Virus record (IMG/VR): IMGVR_UViG_3300008119_001286
Coordinates: 1 to 33,863 of that record
Length of the DNA: 33,863 nucleotides
Source of the DNA: a virus
Reading direction: 5' to 3' (one strand)
The number at the start of each line of letters is the position of its first letter. The stretch's first letter is position 1. The notes under the pieces were generated by a model. That model did no database searches, was not told where the DNA came from, and worked only from the letters and a program-made list of their open reading frames with translations. Below, one piece after another: positions 2,431-28,903 of this stretch. The position numbers and the translations under genes are program-made.

Positions 2431-2589
2431 ATGATTTTAGAAGCAGAATTATTACACAATTTAAGAGAATTAAAGAACTATCACAAACTTGAAATTCTCA
2501 TGTCGTACTATAAAAAATCACCGATTGAGATGATAGACGACATACTTGGTAAACTAGAAATTAATGTAGAAAAAGAGGAAATAAAATGA
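2431..2589 (+). CDS. Small hypothetical protein, 52 aa
   Basis: 52 residues from ATG 2431, directly after the preceding TAA and 5-6 bases after AGGAGG. Helical and charged: MILEAELLHNLRELKNYHKL, then a second helix SPIEMIDDILGKLEIN. It ends ...KEEIK, with its TGA inside the ATGA shared with gene 2586. The same C-terminal KEEIK and junction end gene 1760-1987. Function unknown. Confidence 0.6.
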   Translation: MILEAELLHNLRELKNYHKLEILMSYYKKSPIEMIDDILGKLEINVEKEEIK

Positions 2590-3035
2590 ACAACAAATTT
2601 GAAGATATGTTTTGGAATTTTTTAAGAAAAAATAAAGGATCAGTTAATAAAGGTGAAAATGAAGAATCAGTTAATAAAGGTGAAAATGAAGAATCAGTTA
2701 ATAAAGGTGAAAATGAAGAATCAGTTAATAAAGGTGAAAATATTAATAACAGAAATTTTTATATTGATTTTTACAACAGTTTAAAATTTTTATCTAAAAT
2801 AAATTATTTGTGTGTAAAAAACTTAATACCTCAAGAGTTAAAAGAAGATGTATATAAACTAAAGAGGCAAAAACATGCTGGTTTATTTGTTAAATATAAA
2901 AATTTACCTGATGAATATAAAGAAATAATAAAAAGAAAATATAATATTGATGAAGAAAGAACTGAAGATATAATTGATCTTTTAATGTTTTATGTAACAT
3001 TTAGTTATATACTTGAAGAAAATTTTAGGATTTAA
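2586..3035 (+). CDS. Hypothetical protein with 9-residue tandem repeats
   Basis: 149 residues. Residues 1-7 (MNNKFED) are identical to those of gene 3037, encoded by a perfect repeat. Residues 19-52 hold four copies of SVNKGENEE (the last truncated to SVNKGEN), encoded by a perfect 27-bp tandem repeat. The remaining part (about 55-149) is a probable helical domain, rich in Lys and Tyr, with no motif I recognise. The start overlaps the previous stop (ATGA). The repeat number could vary by slippage without shifting the frame. It may be a recent insertion; function unknown. Confidence 0.65.
   Translation: MNNKFEDMFWNFLRKNKGSVNKGENEESVNKGENEESVNKGENEESVNKGENINNRNFYIDFYNSLKFLSKINYLCVKNLIPQELKEDVYKLKRQKHAGLFVKYKNLPDEYKEIIKRKYNIDEERTEDIIDLLMFYVTFSYILEENFRI
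2640..2740 (+). repeat. 27-bp tandem repeat, four copies, inside gene 2586-3035
   Basis: Copies start at 2640, 2667, 2694 and 2721. The first three are full units with identical sequence; the fourth is truncated after 20 bases (2740). The unit begins TCAGTTAATAAAGGTGAAAA and keeps the reading frame, encoding SVNKGENEE. The core GTTAATAAAGGTGAA resembles GTGAATAAGGTGAA of the repeat cluster at 98-160. Confidence 0.9.
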
Positions 3036-11950: not shown

Positions 11951-12140
11951 AATTTTAGCTTGGTTGTTATTGATATTATTCTCACCGCTTATAATCATCA
12001 TAGGTAGTTTAGTGGGTGTTTTTATGTTAATACATGCAATACTTTGTGAAATGGAAAGAATATTTTATTATCAGATAATACCTTATATTAAATTGAAAGT
12101 AAAAATTGTTAGAGATTCCTTTAGAAAAAAAGATAGTTAA
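11943..12140 (+). CDS. Small membrane protein
   Basis: 65 residues from ATG 11943, chosen for the upstream AGAGGTG and the 8-bp overlap with the HNH gene; longer frames into the HNH gene are shadows. A long hydrophobic N-terminal region (ILAWLLLILFSPLIIIIGSLVGVFMLIHAIL) probably forms one or two membrane passes. It is followed by a basic tail (YIKLKVKIVRDSFRKKDS). Function unknown. Confidence 0.6.
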   Translation: MIKILAWLLLILFSPLIIIIGSLVGVFMLIHAILCEMERIFYYQIIPYIKLKVKIVRDSFRKKDS

Positions 12141-12402
12141 TAAAGCTAAAAAGCTTGGTTATCTTACATATAAATTTGTCTCACCTAGTAATAGAGGTGT
12201 GCCTGACAGAATTTTTATAAGTGAAAACGGTAAATTGTTCTTTGTTGAGTTTAAGTCTAAAAAAGGTAAATTGAGCGAGTTACAAAAATTAAAAATTTCG
12301 GAACTAATAGCAAAAAAACAATCGGTATTCGTAGTTAATGATGAGGAATTAGCTATGAAAATATTAACAGAATATATGATTGATGTTACAAACGAAAAGT
12401 GA
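12106..12402 (+). CDS. VRR-NUC domain nuclease
   Basis: About 98 residues, if started at TTG 12106, overlapping the previous gene by 35 bp. No ATG or GTG is available before the domain, and the TTG follows GAAAGTAAAAA. The VRR-NUC core is clear: NRGVPDRIFI (29-38, D34), FFVEFKSKKGKLSELQ (45-60, E48, K50, Q60), and a final VFVVNDEE strand. Phage VRR-NUC proteins are stand-alone nucleases, often encoded next to SNF2 helicases, as here (13332). A structure-specific or Holliday-junction-type nuclease role is inferred from the family. Confidence 0.8.
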   Translation: MLEIPLEKKIVNKAKKLGYLTYKFVSPSNRGVPDRIFISENGKLFFVEFKSKKGKLSELQKLKISELIAKKQSVFVVNDEELAMKILTEYMIDVTNEK

Positions 12403-12416
12403 TATAAGTAGTTTAG

Positions 12417-12527
12417 AATAAAAGGTTACCTCTGCTTGAACCAAGAATAACCTTTAAATATCTTATACTACAAATTAAACACGTAGTCAAATTTAAAGTT
12501 TCTTGGTTCTTAAATAATCCTTTTATT
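12417..12527 (+). ncRNA. Candidate structured RNA: long nested stem-loop with alternative pairing
   Basis: Nested perfect pairings fill this 155-bp intergenic gap. P1 is AATAAAAGG (12417-12425) with CCTTTTATT (12519-12527). P2 is GAACCAAGAA (12438-12447) with TTCTTGGTTC (12500-12509). P3 is CTTTAAAT (12452-12459) with ATTTAAAG (12491-12498). P4 is ACTAC (12467-12471) with GTAGT (12483-12487). A competing hairpin, AAAGGTTA (12421-12428) with TAACCTTT (12448-12455), would break P1 and P3. No T-run follows, so it is not a standard terminator. It lies 30 bp upstream of the antirepressor start, so it may be a leader switch, an RNase III site or a processed RNA. Confidence 0.55.
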
Positions 12528-12557
12528 ATTTATTAATTTTAAATTTATAGGTTATTT

Positions 12558-13331
12558 ATGAATATAACAATAATAGAGCATAAAGAATTAAAAAAAGCTG
12601 TATCTGCTAGAGAATTGTATGAGTTTTTAAAAATAGATACACCATTACATAAATGGATAATAAGAATGATTGAATATTTGGATTTAGAAGAAAATATTGA
12701 TTATATAGTTACGGACAAAATTGTCCAAAACTCCAGTTTATCGGGTGGACGACCATCTAAAGAGTACTTTTTAACTATTGATGCAGCTAAAGAAATTTCA
12801 ATGTTACAAAGAAGTGAGAAAGGAAAAGAAGCTCGTAAATACTTTATTGAATGTGAGAGGAAGTTAAAAGAACATCAATTAGCGATACCTGATTTCTCTA
12901 ATCCATATGAAGCTGCTCTTGCGTGGGCAGAGAGTTATAAAAGAGAACAGCTTGCTATAGAGGAAAGAGACATTGCTATAAAAACAAAATCTCAAATTAA
13001 TAATAAAATAACTGCTACTGCAATGGCTAGAGCGTCCATAGAGACACGAAGAGCAAATAAATTAGCAGATGAACTTGGTATCGGTAAAAAATTCAAACAG
13101 GTTAGAGCTATAGAATGGTTGTCTGATTATTTTGATATTTCAATAGTTAGTTTTTATTCACAGTTTGGTAAAGCACTAAATAAATTCTCAAAAGATAATG
13201 GTTTTGAAGTAAAAATCATAGATGACTCAAAATATGGTAAAGTTAATAATTATCATATAAACGCTATTGAGGGTTTTAAAAAATATTTAGATAATAATCC
13301 TTGTGCATTACCAAAATATAGATTTGCATAA
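12558..13331 (+). CDS. AntA/AntB-type phage antirepressor
   Basis: 257 residues. The N-terminal AntA/AntB domain is recognisable: VSARELYEFLKI (15-26), LHKWIIRMIEY (30-40), NIDYIV, GGRPSKEYFLTIDAAKEISMLQRSEKGKEARKYFIECER spanning 63-101. A helical linker follows (about 115-170). A C-terminal domain (GIGKKFKQVRAIEWLSDYF...) is similar in shape to antirepressor C-terminal helix-turn-helix modules. Antirepressors bind prophage repressors or host regulators. Here no repressor is visible in the window, so it may target a resident prophage or an absent immunity region. It has its own upstream gap with a structured leader (12417-12527), suggesting separate control. Confidence 0.82.
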   Translation: MNITIIEHKELKKAVSARELYEFLKIDTPLHKWIIRMIEYLDLEENIDYIVTDKIVQNSSLSGGRPSKEYFLTIDAAKEISMLQRSEKGKEARKYFIECERKLKEHQLAIPDFSNPYEAALAWAESYKREQLAIEERDIAIKTKSQINNKITATAMARASIETRRANKLADELGIGKKFKQVRAIEWLSDYFDISIVSFYSQFGKALNKFSKDNGFEVKIIDDSKYGKVNNYHINAIEGFKKYLDNNPCALPKYRFA

Positions 13332-14651
13332 ATGTTGAATGAGTCAAACCTTTACCATTATCAACATGAAGTAGTTAATAATATTCTTAAAACAAAAAGA
13401 ATATTTGTTACTCAAGAAATGGGGCTTGGTAAAACAATTGCGTCAATAACTGCTTTTGTTAGAATATTGAACAAAGAAGTTAAAAAATGCCTTATCATAG
13501 CTCCTTTAAATGTTGCTAAGTCTACTTGGGTAAATGAACTTGATAAATGGGAGCATACAAAAAGATTAAGATATTCTGTTGCCGTAGGTAGTGAGAAACA
13601 GCGATTGGAAGCTTTGCAAAAAGAAGTTGATATTTATATTATCAATCAGGAAAACATACCTTGGATGTTTCACAAAGGATTTAAAAAGTATGGTTTTATT
13701 ATTGTAGATGAAAGCACTGGTTTTAAGTCTCATAGCTCTAATCGTTTTAAAGCTTTAAGACATTTTACATCTCTTTATATGGTATTACTTACAGGCACAC
13801 CATATCCTAATGGGTTTATGGACTTATGGAGTCAGATATATTTACTTGATAAAGGTGAGAGACTAGGTAAATACATAACTCATTATAGAAATCAGTATTT
13901 TACTTATGATGAACATAAGCGTAAGTATATCTGTCTCTATCCAAATACCATACTAGATAAAATAAAGGACATTACTATCTCAATGAAAGCTGAAGATTAT
14001 CTGGAATTACCGGATAAAATATCTAATGTGGTAAAAGTTGATATAGATAATTATGATTTGTACAAGAAATTTGAGAAAGAATATTACTTGCGAATTAACA
14101 ATGATGAAATAACGGCAGTTAATGCAGCAGTATTGTATTCTAAATTACTTCAATACTGCAATGGAGCTGTTTATAGCAGTGAAAATGACGGATCATATAT
14201 AATCATCCATAATAATAAAATAGAGTGCTTAAAAGAATTTATAGAGCTTTATCCAGATGAGAATATATTAGTTGCTTATAAGTTTAGATGCGATGAGGAG
14301 AGGATAAAATTAGCTATTCCAACCAGTGTCACCTTAAATAGAAATAACACAATAGAAGTTCAAAACCGATGGAACGACGGGAAGATAAAATTATTGTTAT
14401 GCCAGTGCGGTACTGCTAAAGGGTTAAACTTACAATATGGAGGTAGAATTATTGTGTGGTTTGGGGTTACTCCTGATTTAGAACATTATTTACAATTCAA
14501 TGCAAGACTTCATAGACAAGGTCAAACTAAACCTGTTCTTATTTATCATATTGTAGCTAATAAATGTAAGGATGAACAAATTATTAAAGTTCTTGAAAAT
14601 AAAAATGCTAGTTCTGAAATGATATATGAGGTGTTGAAAAAATCAGAGTAG
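13332..14651 (+). CDS. SNF2-family (superfamily 2) DNA helicase/ATPase
   Basis: 439 residues starting immediately after the antirepressor stop. Superfamily 2 motifs: Q-like LYHYQHE (7-13), motif I EMGLGKT (29-35), Ia IIAPLNV, motif II VDES (125-128), motif III LLTGTPYPN (152-160), motif V CGTAKGLNLQ (359-368) and motif VI QFNARLHRQGQ (388-398). It is close to the minimal phage SNF2 form that accompanies VRR-NUC and VirE-type primase genes. Probable role: ATP-driven DNA remodelling or branch migration during replication or recombination. Its last codons form half of a perfect hairpin (14647-14671). Confidence 0.9.
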   Translation: MLNESNLYHYQHEVVNNILKTKRIFVTQEMGLGKTIASITAFVRILNKEVKKCLIIAPLNVAKSTWVNELDKWEHTKRLRYSVAVGSEKQRLEALQKEVDIYIINQENIPWMFHKGFKKYGFIIVDESTGFKSHSSNRFKALRHFTSLYMVLLTGTPYPNGFMDLWSQIYLLDKGERLGKYITHYRNQYFTYDEHKRKYICLYPNTILDKIKDITISMKAEDYLELPDKISNVVKVDIDNYDLYKKFEKEYYLRINNDEITAVNAAVLYSKLLQYCNGAVYSSENDGSYIIIHNNKIECLKEFIELYPDENILVAYKFRCDEERIKLAIPTSVTLNRNNTIEVQNRWNDGKIKLLLCQCGTAKGLNLQYGGRIIVWFGVTPDLEHYLQFNARLHRQGQTKPVLIYHIVANKCKDEQIIKVLENKNASSEMIYEVLKKSE

Positions 14652-14671
14652 ACTACATTTTGTAGTCTACT
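14647..14671 (+). repeat. Perfect 11-bp hairpin over the helicase stop codon
   Basis: AGTAGACTACA (14647-14657), loop TTT, then TGTAGTCTACT (14661-14671). The stop codon TAG is inside the left arm. No T-run follows, so it is not a classical terminator on its own. It may protect the 3' end of the early messenger or help the terminator 8 bp downstream. Confidence 0.7.
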
Positions 14672-14678
14672 TACCAAT

Positions 14679-14726
14679 AAAAAAGAACTTACTATTGGGA
14701 TTTACCCCAGTAATAAGTTCTTTTTT
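14679..14726. terminator. Bidirectional intrinsic terminator
   Basis: AAAAAAGAACTTA (14679-14691) pairs perfectly with TAAGTTCTTTTTT (14714-14726). The inner bases (TATTGGG with CCCAGTA, near perfect) extend the stem. Read rightward the stem ends in six T; read leftward it also ends in six T. It lies where the rightward early block and the leftward late block meet. Confidence 0.85.
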
Positions 14727-14727
14727 A

Positions 14728-14761
14728 TAACCCTAATTAGATTTTACTCAAACTAGGGTTA
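14728..14761. repeat. Inverted repeat in the convergent region
   Basis: TAACCCTA (14728-14735) and TAGGGTTA (14754-14761) are perfectly complementary around an 18-nt loop. It sits between the bidirectional terminator and the late-strand terminator. No T-run on either side; possibly an accessory stem or a protein site. Confidence 0.45.
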
Positions 14762-27787: not shown

Positions 27788-28399
27788 CTAAACACTCGTA
27801 TAGAAGTTTACAATATCACCTAGTTTTTCTTTATATAATGTGTATACAGTAGATAATTTAGTCATTTGACCATTAGTTGTTAGAAATATGTAAAATACTG
27901 CTCCAAGAACTAGTGTTTGCATTACAAGTTCATCATAAATAACAGTATCTGACTCAATATCAACATTATTTACAACTTCAACTAAATTCTTTAATTTAGG
28001 TATTTGAAATATTTTAACAAAATTATCCCCGTCAGTATCTTTAGGATAATCCTTACAACCCAATATTACTTTATTTTCAGATGGTATTATATAATATTGT
28101 TTTTCAGTTAATGAAAGAGTATCATTTGTAAGTAGATCAAAAGAACTTAATTTAACATCATAATTATAAACTGATCTTAACCTATTATTCTTGAAATCAA
28201 ATACAAAAGAATATTCAAGACCATTTAAAACAACTTTCTGTTCTTTATAAATTAAAAATTCTTTATAATTCCGTAATCTTAAATAAATGTCATTGTTTGC
28301 AAAATTAAGACAACGTAAGTATTCCTTACGTTGTCTTTCAGTAGCTAATGTACCAAAAGCAAATTGAGAAATAGTATCAATAAGTTCTGTAACATTCAT
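27788..28399 (-). CDS. Head-to-tail adaptor protein
   Basis: 203 residues. Helical start (VTELIDTISQFAFGTLATERQRKEYLRCLNFANNDIYLRLRNY, 3-46), a beta-rich centre (QKVVLNGLEYSFVFDF) and a helical C-terminus (DELVMQTLVLGAVFYIFL...). This helix-beta-helix arrangement, length and position between capsid and nozzle genes fit the tail adaptor (P22 gp4 / T7 gp11 type). A 13-bp perfect hairpin sits in its first 100 bases. No clear ribosome-binding site, 6-bp gap to the gene before. Confidence 0.7.
   Translation of the reverse strand: MNVTELIDTISQFAFGTLATERQRKEYLRCLNFANNDIYLRLRNYKEFLIYKEQKVVLNGLEYSFVFDFKNNRLRSVYNYDVKLSSFDLLTNDTLSLTEKQYYIIPSENKVILGCKDYPKDTDGDNFVKIFQIPKLKNLVEVVNNVDIESDTVIYDELVMQTLVLGAVFYIFLTTNGQMTKLSTVYTLYKEKLGDIVNFYTSV
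28307..28337 (-). promoter_or_regulatory. Strong 13-bp intragenic hairpin near the start of the adaptor gene
   Basis: AAGACAACGTAAG (28307-28319) and CTTACGTTGTCTT (28325-28337) are perfectly complementary around a 5-nt loop. On the minus-strand messenger the hairpin begins about 62 bases into the adaptor gene and is followed by AATTTTG. With about 0.29 pairing chance per base, my rough estimate is far fewer than one such 13-bp hairpin expected in this window. Confidence 0.75.
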
Positions 28400-28405
28400 T
28401 TAAAA

Positions 28406-28903
28406 TTAGTTTTTATAAGTTACTCTTATGTTCATAGTTGAACCTGCTATAGTATTTGCAGCAGCTAAAACTGATATAATCAACCTTGATTTACTAGAAG
28501 AAAAACTAATATTGTTTCTAACTGTCAAATGATTTGCAAAAGCTGCTACTAGGTCTGTTTCAGTTCTATTTAAACCTATAAATTCAACACCGCATATATC
28601 GGAATTAATACCTATATTTGATAAAAGTACAGACATATAATTAACAGTAGTTCCGTTAAAAGTAGCTGGAATAGCTATGGCAACTATTTTATCTACATAA
28701 GTACCGCTGGTAGTACTACTAACTGCTGGTAAAATAGTAGCTTTATCAGAGTTATTAGCAGCAACAGCATTACCTAATGCCATTGCTACATCAGTAGCAC
28801 ATCCTACAAAGTTTACTCCAGTAATACCTAAAGCGGTTGCATCATTTGGTAATTGAGCAACGTTAGCTGCTCCGGTTATTGTGTATTTTACAACTAAATT
28901 CAT
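28406..28903 (-). CDS. Possible capsid decoration protein
   Basis: 165 residues, very different in composition from its neighbours: Ala, Val, Thr, Ser-rich (MNLVVKYTITGAANVAQLPN...GNAVAANNSDKATILPAVSS), predicted all beta. No membrane segment or signal peptide. It directly follows the major capsid gene (15-bp gap) with AGGT as ribosome-binding site, so a head-surface or cement protein is likely. Alternative: a head completion protein. Confidence 0.5.
   Translation of the reverse strand: MNLVVKYTITGAANVAQLPNDATALGITGVNFVGCATDVAMALGNAVAANNSDKATILPAVSSTTSGTYVDKIVAIAIPATFNGTTVNYMSVLLSNIGINSDICGVEFIGLNRTETDLVAAFANHLTVRNNISFSSSKSRLIISVLAAANTIAGSTMNIRVTYKN

Follow-up and report, generated by a model that had tools for sequence, protein, structure and literature searches.

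The C4 RNA of phages P1 and P7 (RF01695) blocks the ribosome binding site (RBS) of the antirepressor operon (PMC5320573, PMC12197685) and is processed by RNase P to give a 77-nt RNA (PMC5320573). This antisense RNA shares with the element described here a size of ~80-110 nt, a position directly 5' of the antirepressor gene on the same strand, and a segment complementary to the RBS (PMC5320573), but our element is one nested stem whose complementary segment is buried in stems P2 and P3 and for which no favourable loop contact is predicted. In phage P22 the antirepressor gene (ant) is also under RNA control at its translation start, although the sar RNA responsible is a separate antisense transcript of 68-69 nt (PMC12197685), and none is indicated at our locus. 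The prophage and phage RNAs IsrK (Gifsy-1) and 24B_1, which have been tied to the control of antirepressors or of antitermination (PMC12197685, PMC4426718), are alike in purpose only. Shine-Dalgarno-sequestering leaders and riboswitches, as a general class, have in common with the element that a leader segment able to pair with the Shine-Dalgarno sequence is kept elsewhere by a competing stem; our element, however, comes without a ligand or conserved aptamer, and its competing fold lies ~7 kcal/mol apart at equilibrium. The element's resemblance to the known RNAs that control antirepressors is one of location and presumed purpose and does not extend to sequence or layout.

The element lies in a 33,863-nt stretch of viral DNA (IMG/VR record IMGVR_UViG_3300008119_001286, positions 1 to 33,863; hereafter the window), in which a 155-nt gap (12403-12557) separates the stop codon of a VRR-NUC gene (12402) from the ATG of an antirepressor gene (12558). 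A preliminary description had taken the gap to be non-coding and 155 bp long; the length was right, and the gap contains no plus-strand ORF of at least 20 aa. The features of the locus are listed in Table 1. Among those proteins of the record that were tested, which may be an incomplete record, none was an integrase or a repressor. (Elsewhere in the window, the gene at 2586-3035 repeats a unit of 9 residues, SVNKGENEE, four times in tandem.)

Table 1. Positions in the window of the structured element, its stems and the features that surround it.
Feature	Position	Strand	Evidence or remark
VRR-NUC nuclease gene, 5' neighbour	12106..12402	+	Pfam VRR_NUC 1e-5
Promoter-like site	12380..12408	+	-35 TTGATG (12380-12385), 17-nt spacer, extended -10 TGaTATAAG (hexamer 12403-12408)
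Structured RNA element	12417..12527	+	MFE -24.2, z -6.22; same nested fold in L002
P1 5' arm	12417..12425	+	partner 12519-12527; one pair broken in L002
Alternative-hairpin arm AAAGGTTA	12421..12428	+	partner 12448-12455; perfect inverted repeat
P2 5' arm	12438..12447	+	partner 12500-12509; pair probability ~1.0; C12442T gives U-G, pair kept
Anti-Shine-Dalgarno segment AATAACCTTTAAAT	12446..12459	+	13/14 complementary to antirepressor Shine-Dalgarno region
P3 5' arm	12452..12459	+	partner 12491-12498; probability 0.997, window and L002 alike
P4 5' arm, 11-nt loop	12467..12471	+	partner 12483-12487; probability 0.93 in both sequences
P4 3' arm	12483..12487	+	pair probabilities
P3 3' arm	12491..12498	+	fold prediction and pair probabilities
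P2 3' arm	12500..12509	+	fold prediction and pair probabilities
P1 3' arm	12519..12527	+	C12520A in L002
Shine-Dalgarno region ATTTATAGGTTATT	12543..12556	+	AGG 6 nt 5' of ATG; conserved in L002
AntA-type antirepressor gene	12558..13331	+	Pfam AntA 1.3e-20; PHROG anti-repressor Ant
SNF2-type helicase gene, 3' neighbour, right border of variable slot	13332..14651	+	Pfam SNF2-rel_dom 1.4e-24

On the plus strand, the minimum free energy structure of 12417-12527 coincides with the centroid at -24.2 kcal/mol (z -6.22), and none of 200 dinucleotide shuffles folded as well. The four nested stems of 9, 10, 8 and 5 bp (P1-P4) that the preliminary description had drawn from the letters are exactly the predicted fold. 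Pair probabilities are ~1.0 for the nested core of P2 and P3 both in the window and in a homologue, L002, and range from 0.93 to 1.0 across P2-P4; P1 is the weakest stem, at 79% in the window ensemble and ~0 in the leader context of L002. The element had been held not to be a plain terminator for lack of a T-run, and no intrinsic-terminator sites were found in 12000-13400. Note that in the window the minus strand of the element folds well too (z -4.95), and that a genome-wide fold scan (27.5% GC) gave equal or lower z-scores at 14637, 37, 17997 and 28305; the fold signal of the element is unusual for the genome, and not unique. At 14637-14747, two adjoining perfect terminator-like hairpins between convergent gene halves (-43 kcal/mol, z ~-11) are probably a bidirectional terminator, and at 28305-28415 a perfect 13-bp hairpin with a 5-nt loop (z ~-6) lies in the coding start of the gene at 27788-28399 (minus strand).

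One homologue of the element was found, in L002 (contig IMGVR_UViG_3300042453_004345, the same contig as L085, L100, L161 and L167), with 93.5% identity over 155 nt. Beyond L002 the element was not found in protein scans with the antirepressor, VRR-NUC and SNF2 proteins, in four DNA-pattern scans of viral contigs, in an antirepressor scan of bacterial genomes, in a distant blastn search of phages and plasmids, or when 179 sources were searched with a covariance model. The plus strand of L002 adopts the same nested fold (z -3.72) whereas on its minus strand the fold is lost (z -1.20). Since P2-P4 persist on the plus strand of L002 and its minus-strand fold is gone, the plus strand is likely to be the product. 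Moreover, 71 of the 72 bases of the core (12438-12509; 98.6%) are identical in the window and L002, the single change, C12442T, converting a C-G pair into a U-G pair and leaving P2 intact on the plus strand. The adjacent VRR-NUC, antirepressor and SNF2 genes, by comparison, are 86-87% identical to L002 at the DNA level and 74-79% identical at third codon positions. Between these two sequences there are no two-sided compensatory changes, one one-sided change (the C-G to U-G) and one broken pair, which results from C12520A in P1. These findings point to a constrained plus-strand core of P2-P4, although recent exchange between the two phages could mimic constraint because identity between the window and L002 is mosaic, with blocks of 97-100% in coding sequence as well (e.g. 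12980-13519). (A leader peptide was considered and rejected: among plus-strand starts, a TTG at 12436 alone has a Shine-Dalgarno-like sequence, AAAAGG, and its product, which reads MNQE in the window but MN in L002, is not conserved.)

The preliminary description also proposed that the element has two mutually exclusive folds, the second being an 8-bp hairpin (12421-12428/12448-12455). This hairpin is indeed a perfect inverted repeat and is also conserved in L002; further 8-bp repeats are present in the same AT-rich stretch. In a 218-nt context the fold containing it reaches -28.9 kcal/mol as against -34.6 kcal/mol for the nested fold, and a fold in which the Shine-Dalgarno sequence is covered reaches -27.7 kcal/mol, 7 kcal/mol worse than the nested one. 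In growing transcripts the alternative hairpin is the best structure only as long as the RNA ends somewhere from ~12456 to ~12504, after which P2 and P3 replace it. Since it is ~6 kcal/mol worse at full length, with an equilibrium probability of ~0.0001, the alternative hairpin would be at most a transient co-transcriptional intermediate. Given that it is disfavoured to this extent in both sequences, the exclusive folds are true as geometry, and a two-state switch, which calls for exclusive folds of comparable stability, is not supported.

Within the folded core, AATAACCTTTAAAT is complementary to the Shine-Dalgarno region of the antirepressor gene (duplex -13.9; p 0.006 to 0.037 against shuffles), a complementarity that ranks first among the 18 genes of the window and is moderately significant; in L002 it is weaker and not significant (p 0.09 and 0.23). 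The segment is buried inside P2/P3, and the best accessible contact comes to a net ~+1 kcal/mol in the window and L002 alike. Antisense pairing in trans through accessible contacts is unfavourable at this energy, and a trans mechanism is not favoured by these models. A role in antirepressor control is the likeliest one for the element.

A distance of 8 nt separates the promoter-like site from the 5' foot of the element, and the site predicts a transcript start at ~12415, two bases 5' of P1. Scored with an approximate sigma-70 matrix (of E. coli type, from which the host may differ), the site comes 20th among 33833 positions of the plus strand, and its hexamers are conserved in L002 (TTGATG / TATAAA); a promoter scan requiring T at the final -10 position does not report it. 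In the relatives L082, L083, L086, L087, L117, L120, L121 and L125, the VRR-NUC gene stops a few codons sooner and another gene precedes SNF2. The homology that the window and L002 share with these relatives breaks off right after GAATATATGA, where TTGATG follows, and resumes at SNF2; the last VRR-NUC codons of the window (IDVTNEK and the stop) are part of the inserted cassette, the proteins of L082, L086 and L087 finishing at EYMSK. Because homology stops just before the -35 hexamer and resumes at SNF2, the promoter, structured leader and antirepressor appear to travel together, and they look like one exchangeable unit. The related antirepressors of L003 and L004 are preceded by a different leader or lack one.

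The slot at 12403-13331 is occupied by a different gene in almost all of the relatives (L117, L120, L121, L125) and is a cassette-exchange hot spot. Two further observations concern promoter-like sites. At the left end (37-180), direct and inverted copies of GTGAATAAGGTGAATAAGGTGAAG adjoin the genome's top-scoring promoter-like site (TTGACA-17-TATAAC, with its -10 at 230) and may form an operator array for the early genes. Within the antirepressor gene, at 12713-12726, a perfect 14-bp palindrome, GGACAAAATTGTCC, which is not conserved in L002, overlaps a minus-strand site (12727-12700) that is sigma-70-like at 11 of 12 positions and from which an antisense transcript would run across the leader.

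The fetched regions upstream of AntA genes show more structure than do the control regions, with a non-redundant median best z of -2.6 versus -1.7 (p 0.001): z<=-4.5 is reached upstream of 12 of 56 AntA genes versus 6 of 103 controls, and anti-RBS segments at p<=0.05 precede 29% of 56 AntA genes versus 6% of 145 controls. Rfam C4 occupies this upstream position in 13 fetched antirepressor loci, some of them near-identical. Our element had not been recognized as any known riboswitch, and a search with the 4227 models of Rfam 15 agrees, yielding no match at the gathering threshold and no credible match at E<=10 (the leads MIR169_2, FopS and Ref84 were rejected, being far under their gathering scores). 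Three other AntA loci (L016 4845-4968, L056 4848-4953 and L003 225-344) have a structured upstream RNA complementary to the antirepressor RBS, with contact energies of -5.3, -7.1 and -3.9, respectively; unmatched by Rfam C4, these are candidate unlisted C4-like RNAs. In L041, sRNA-Xcc1 (RF02221) lies directly 5' of an AntA antirepressor gene at the C4 position (2144-2229) and may have a role in antirepressor control.

The fold and the strand it prefers, its position, the borders of the cassette, the promoter-like site and the complementarity are computed or read from the sequence. We put at about 0.5 the probability that an antirepressor mRNA with its own promoter carries the element as its structured 5' leader (5' UTR), within a cassette exchanged as a unit between VRR-NUC and SNF2. 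The leader probably modulates the translation or stability of this mRNA. That the element is a structured RNA belonging to the antirepressor, as first proposed, is supported by retention of the plus-strand fold in L002, a core conserved beyond the flanking genes, the promoter-like site at its 5' foot, co-mobility, and the frequency of structured RNA 5' of AntA genes. We infer the start site, and likewise the direction and trigger of regulation, as follows. Transcription from ~12415 would put the folded P1-P4 at the extreme 5' end of the message, ending ~30 nt before the start codon. There, P2 and P3 would keep AATAACCTTTAAAT off the Shine-Dalgarno sequence, and the fold may also guard the 5' end. 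If P2/P3 did not form, or were pulled apart by a protein, by some other RNA or by a competing or truncated copy, AATAACCTTTAAAT could cover the Shine-Dalgarno sequence and antirepressor synthesis would go down.

We considered whether the ~110-nt element might instead be released from the leader as a C4-like small antisense RNA that targets the antirepressor RBS in trans and confers immunity against related phages. It has the place and size of C4 at the 13 Rfam-identified AntA loci, directly 5' of the antirepressor gene and on the same strand, and 12446-12459 is complementary to the Shine-Dalgarno region. However, the C4 covariance model, which readily detects C4 at other AntA loci, does not match the element at the gathering threshold or even at E<=10; the three stem-loops of C4, a' and b' loops included, are missing from what is a single nested helix; and the best accessible contact near the RBS is ~+1 kcal/mol, versus -2.8 to -12.1 in 8 of 9 C4 loci. 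Because the complement is buried and the predicted trans pairing is weak, we do not count the element as a C4 member, and we regard this explanation as unlikely. Slightly less likely again is a passive mRNA structure, such as an RNase III or 5'-end-protection stem, that serves stability or processing and has no sensing or anti-RBS role. The position of the fold at the predicted 5' end and its essentially monostable nature would suit such a structure, but a mere hairpin needs no constraint of the kind seen in the core, which, internal loops included, is conserved more than the flanking genes in the two sequences available.

The proximity of the element to the 5' border of the exchanged cassette raised the idea that it functions as DNA, either as a palindrome for recombination or protein binding or as a decayed mobile element. 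The actual border, however, is 30-40 nt to the left of the element, pairing survives the C-G to U-G change as RNA only, and aside from the element kept in L002 no other copy was found in the genome, its relatives, or the viral, phage and plasmid collections; a repeat or palindromic mobile element was rejected on its single copy in the genome, and a DNA role overall seems improbable. Finally, coding stretches of this genome at 17997 and 28305 have similar z-scores, and scanning many windows raises the odds of a chance fold in AT-rich sequence; nevertheless, a z-score of -6.2 at an intergenic position, retained in L002 on one strand only, makes chance the least credible explanation by our estimate.

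A structured leader of the antirepressor mRNA could also be viewed more broadly, and more tentatively, as a new, unlisted family of antirepressor leader RNAs in an AT-rich phage group, one that controls antirepressor translation through the holding back of an anti-Shine-Dalgarno segment, travels with its promoter and antirepressor, and is one of several independent RNA solutions alongside C4, sar and the unlisted C4-like RNAs; we consider this possible but doubtful. If this reading, which is drawn from two sequences, is true, RNA control before antirepressor genes would be a recurrent solution that extends beyond P1, P7 and P22, and the DNA 5' of AntA genes would be a good hunting ground for undescribed regulatory RNAs.
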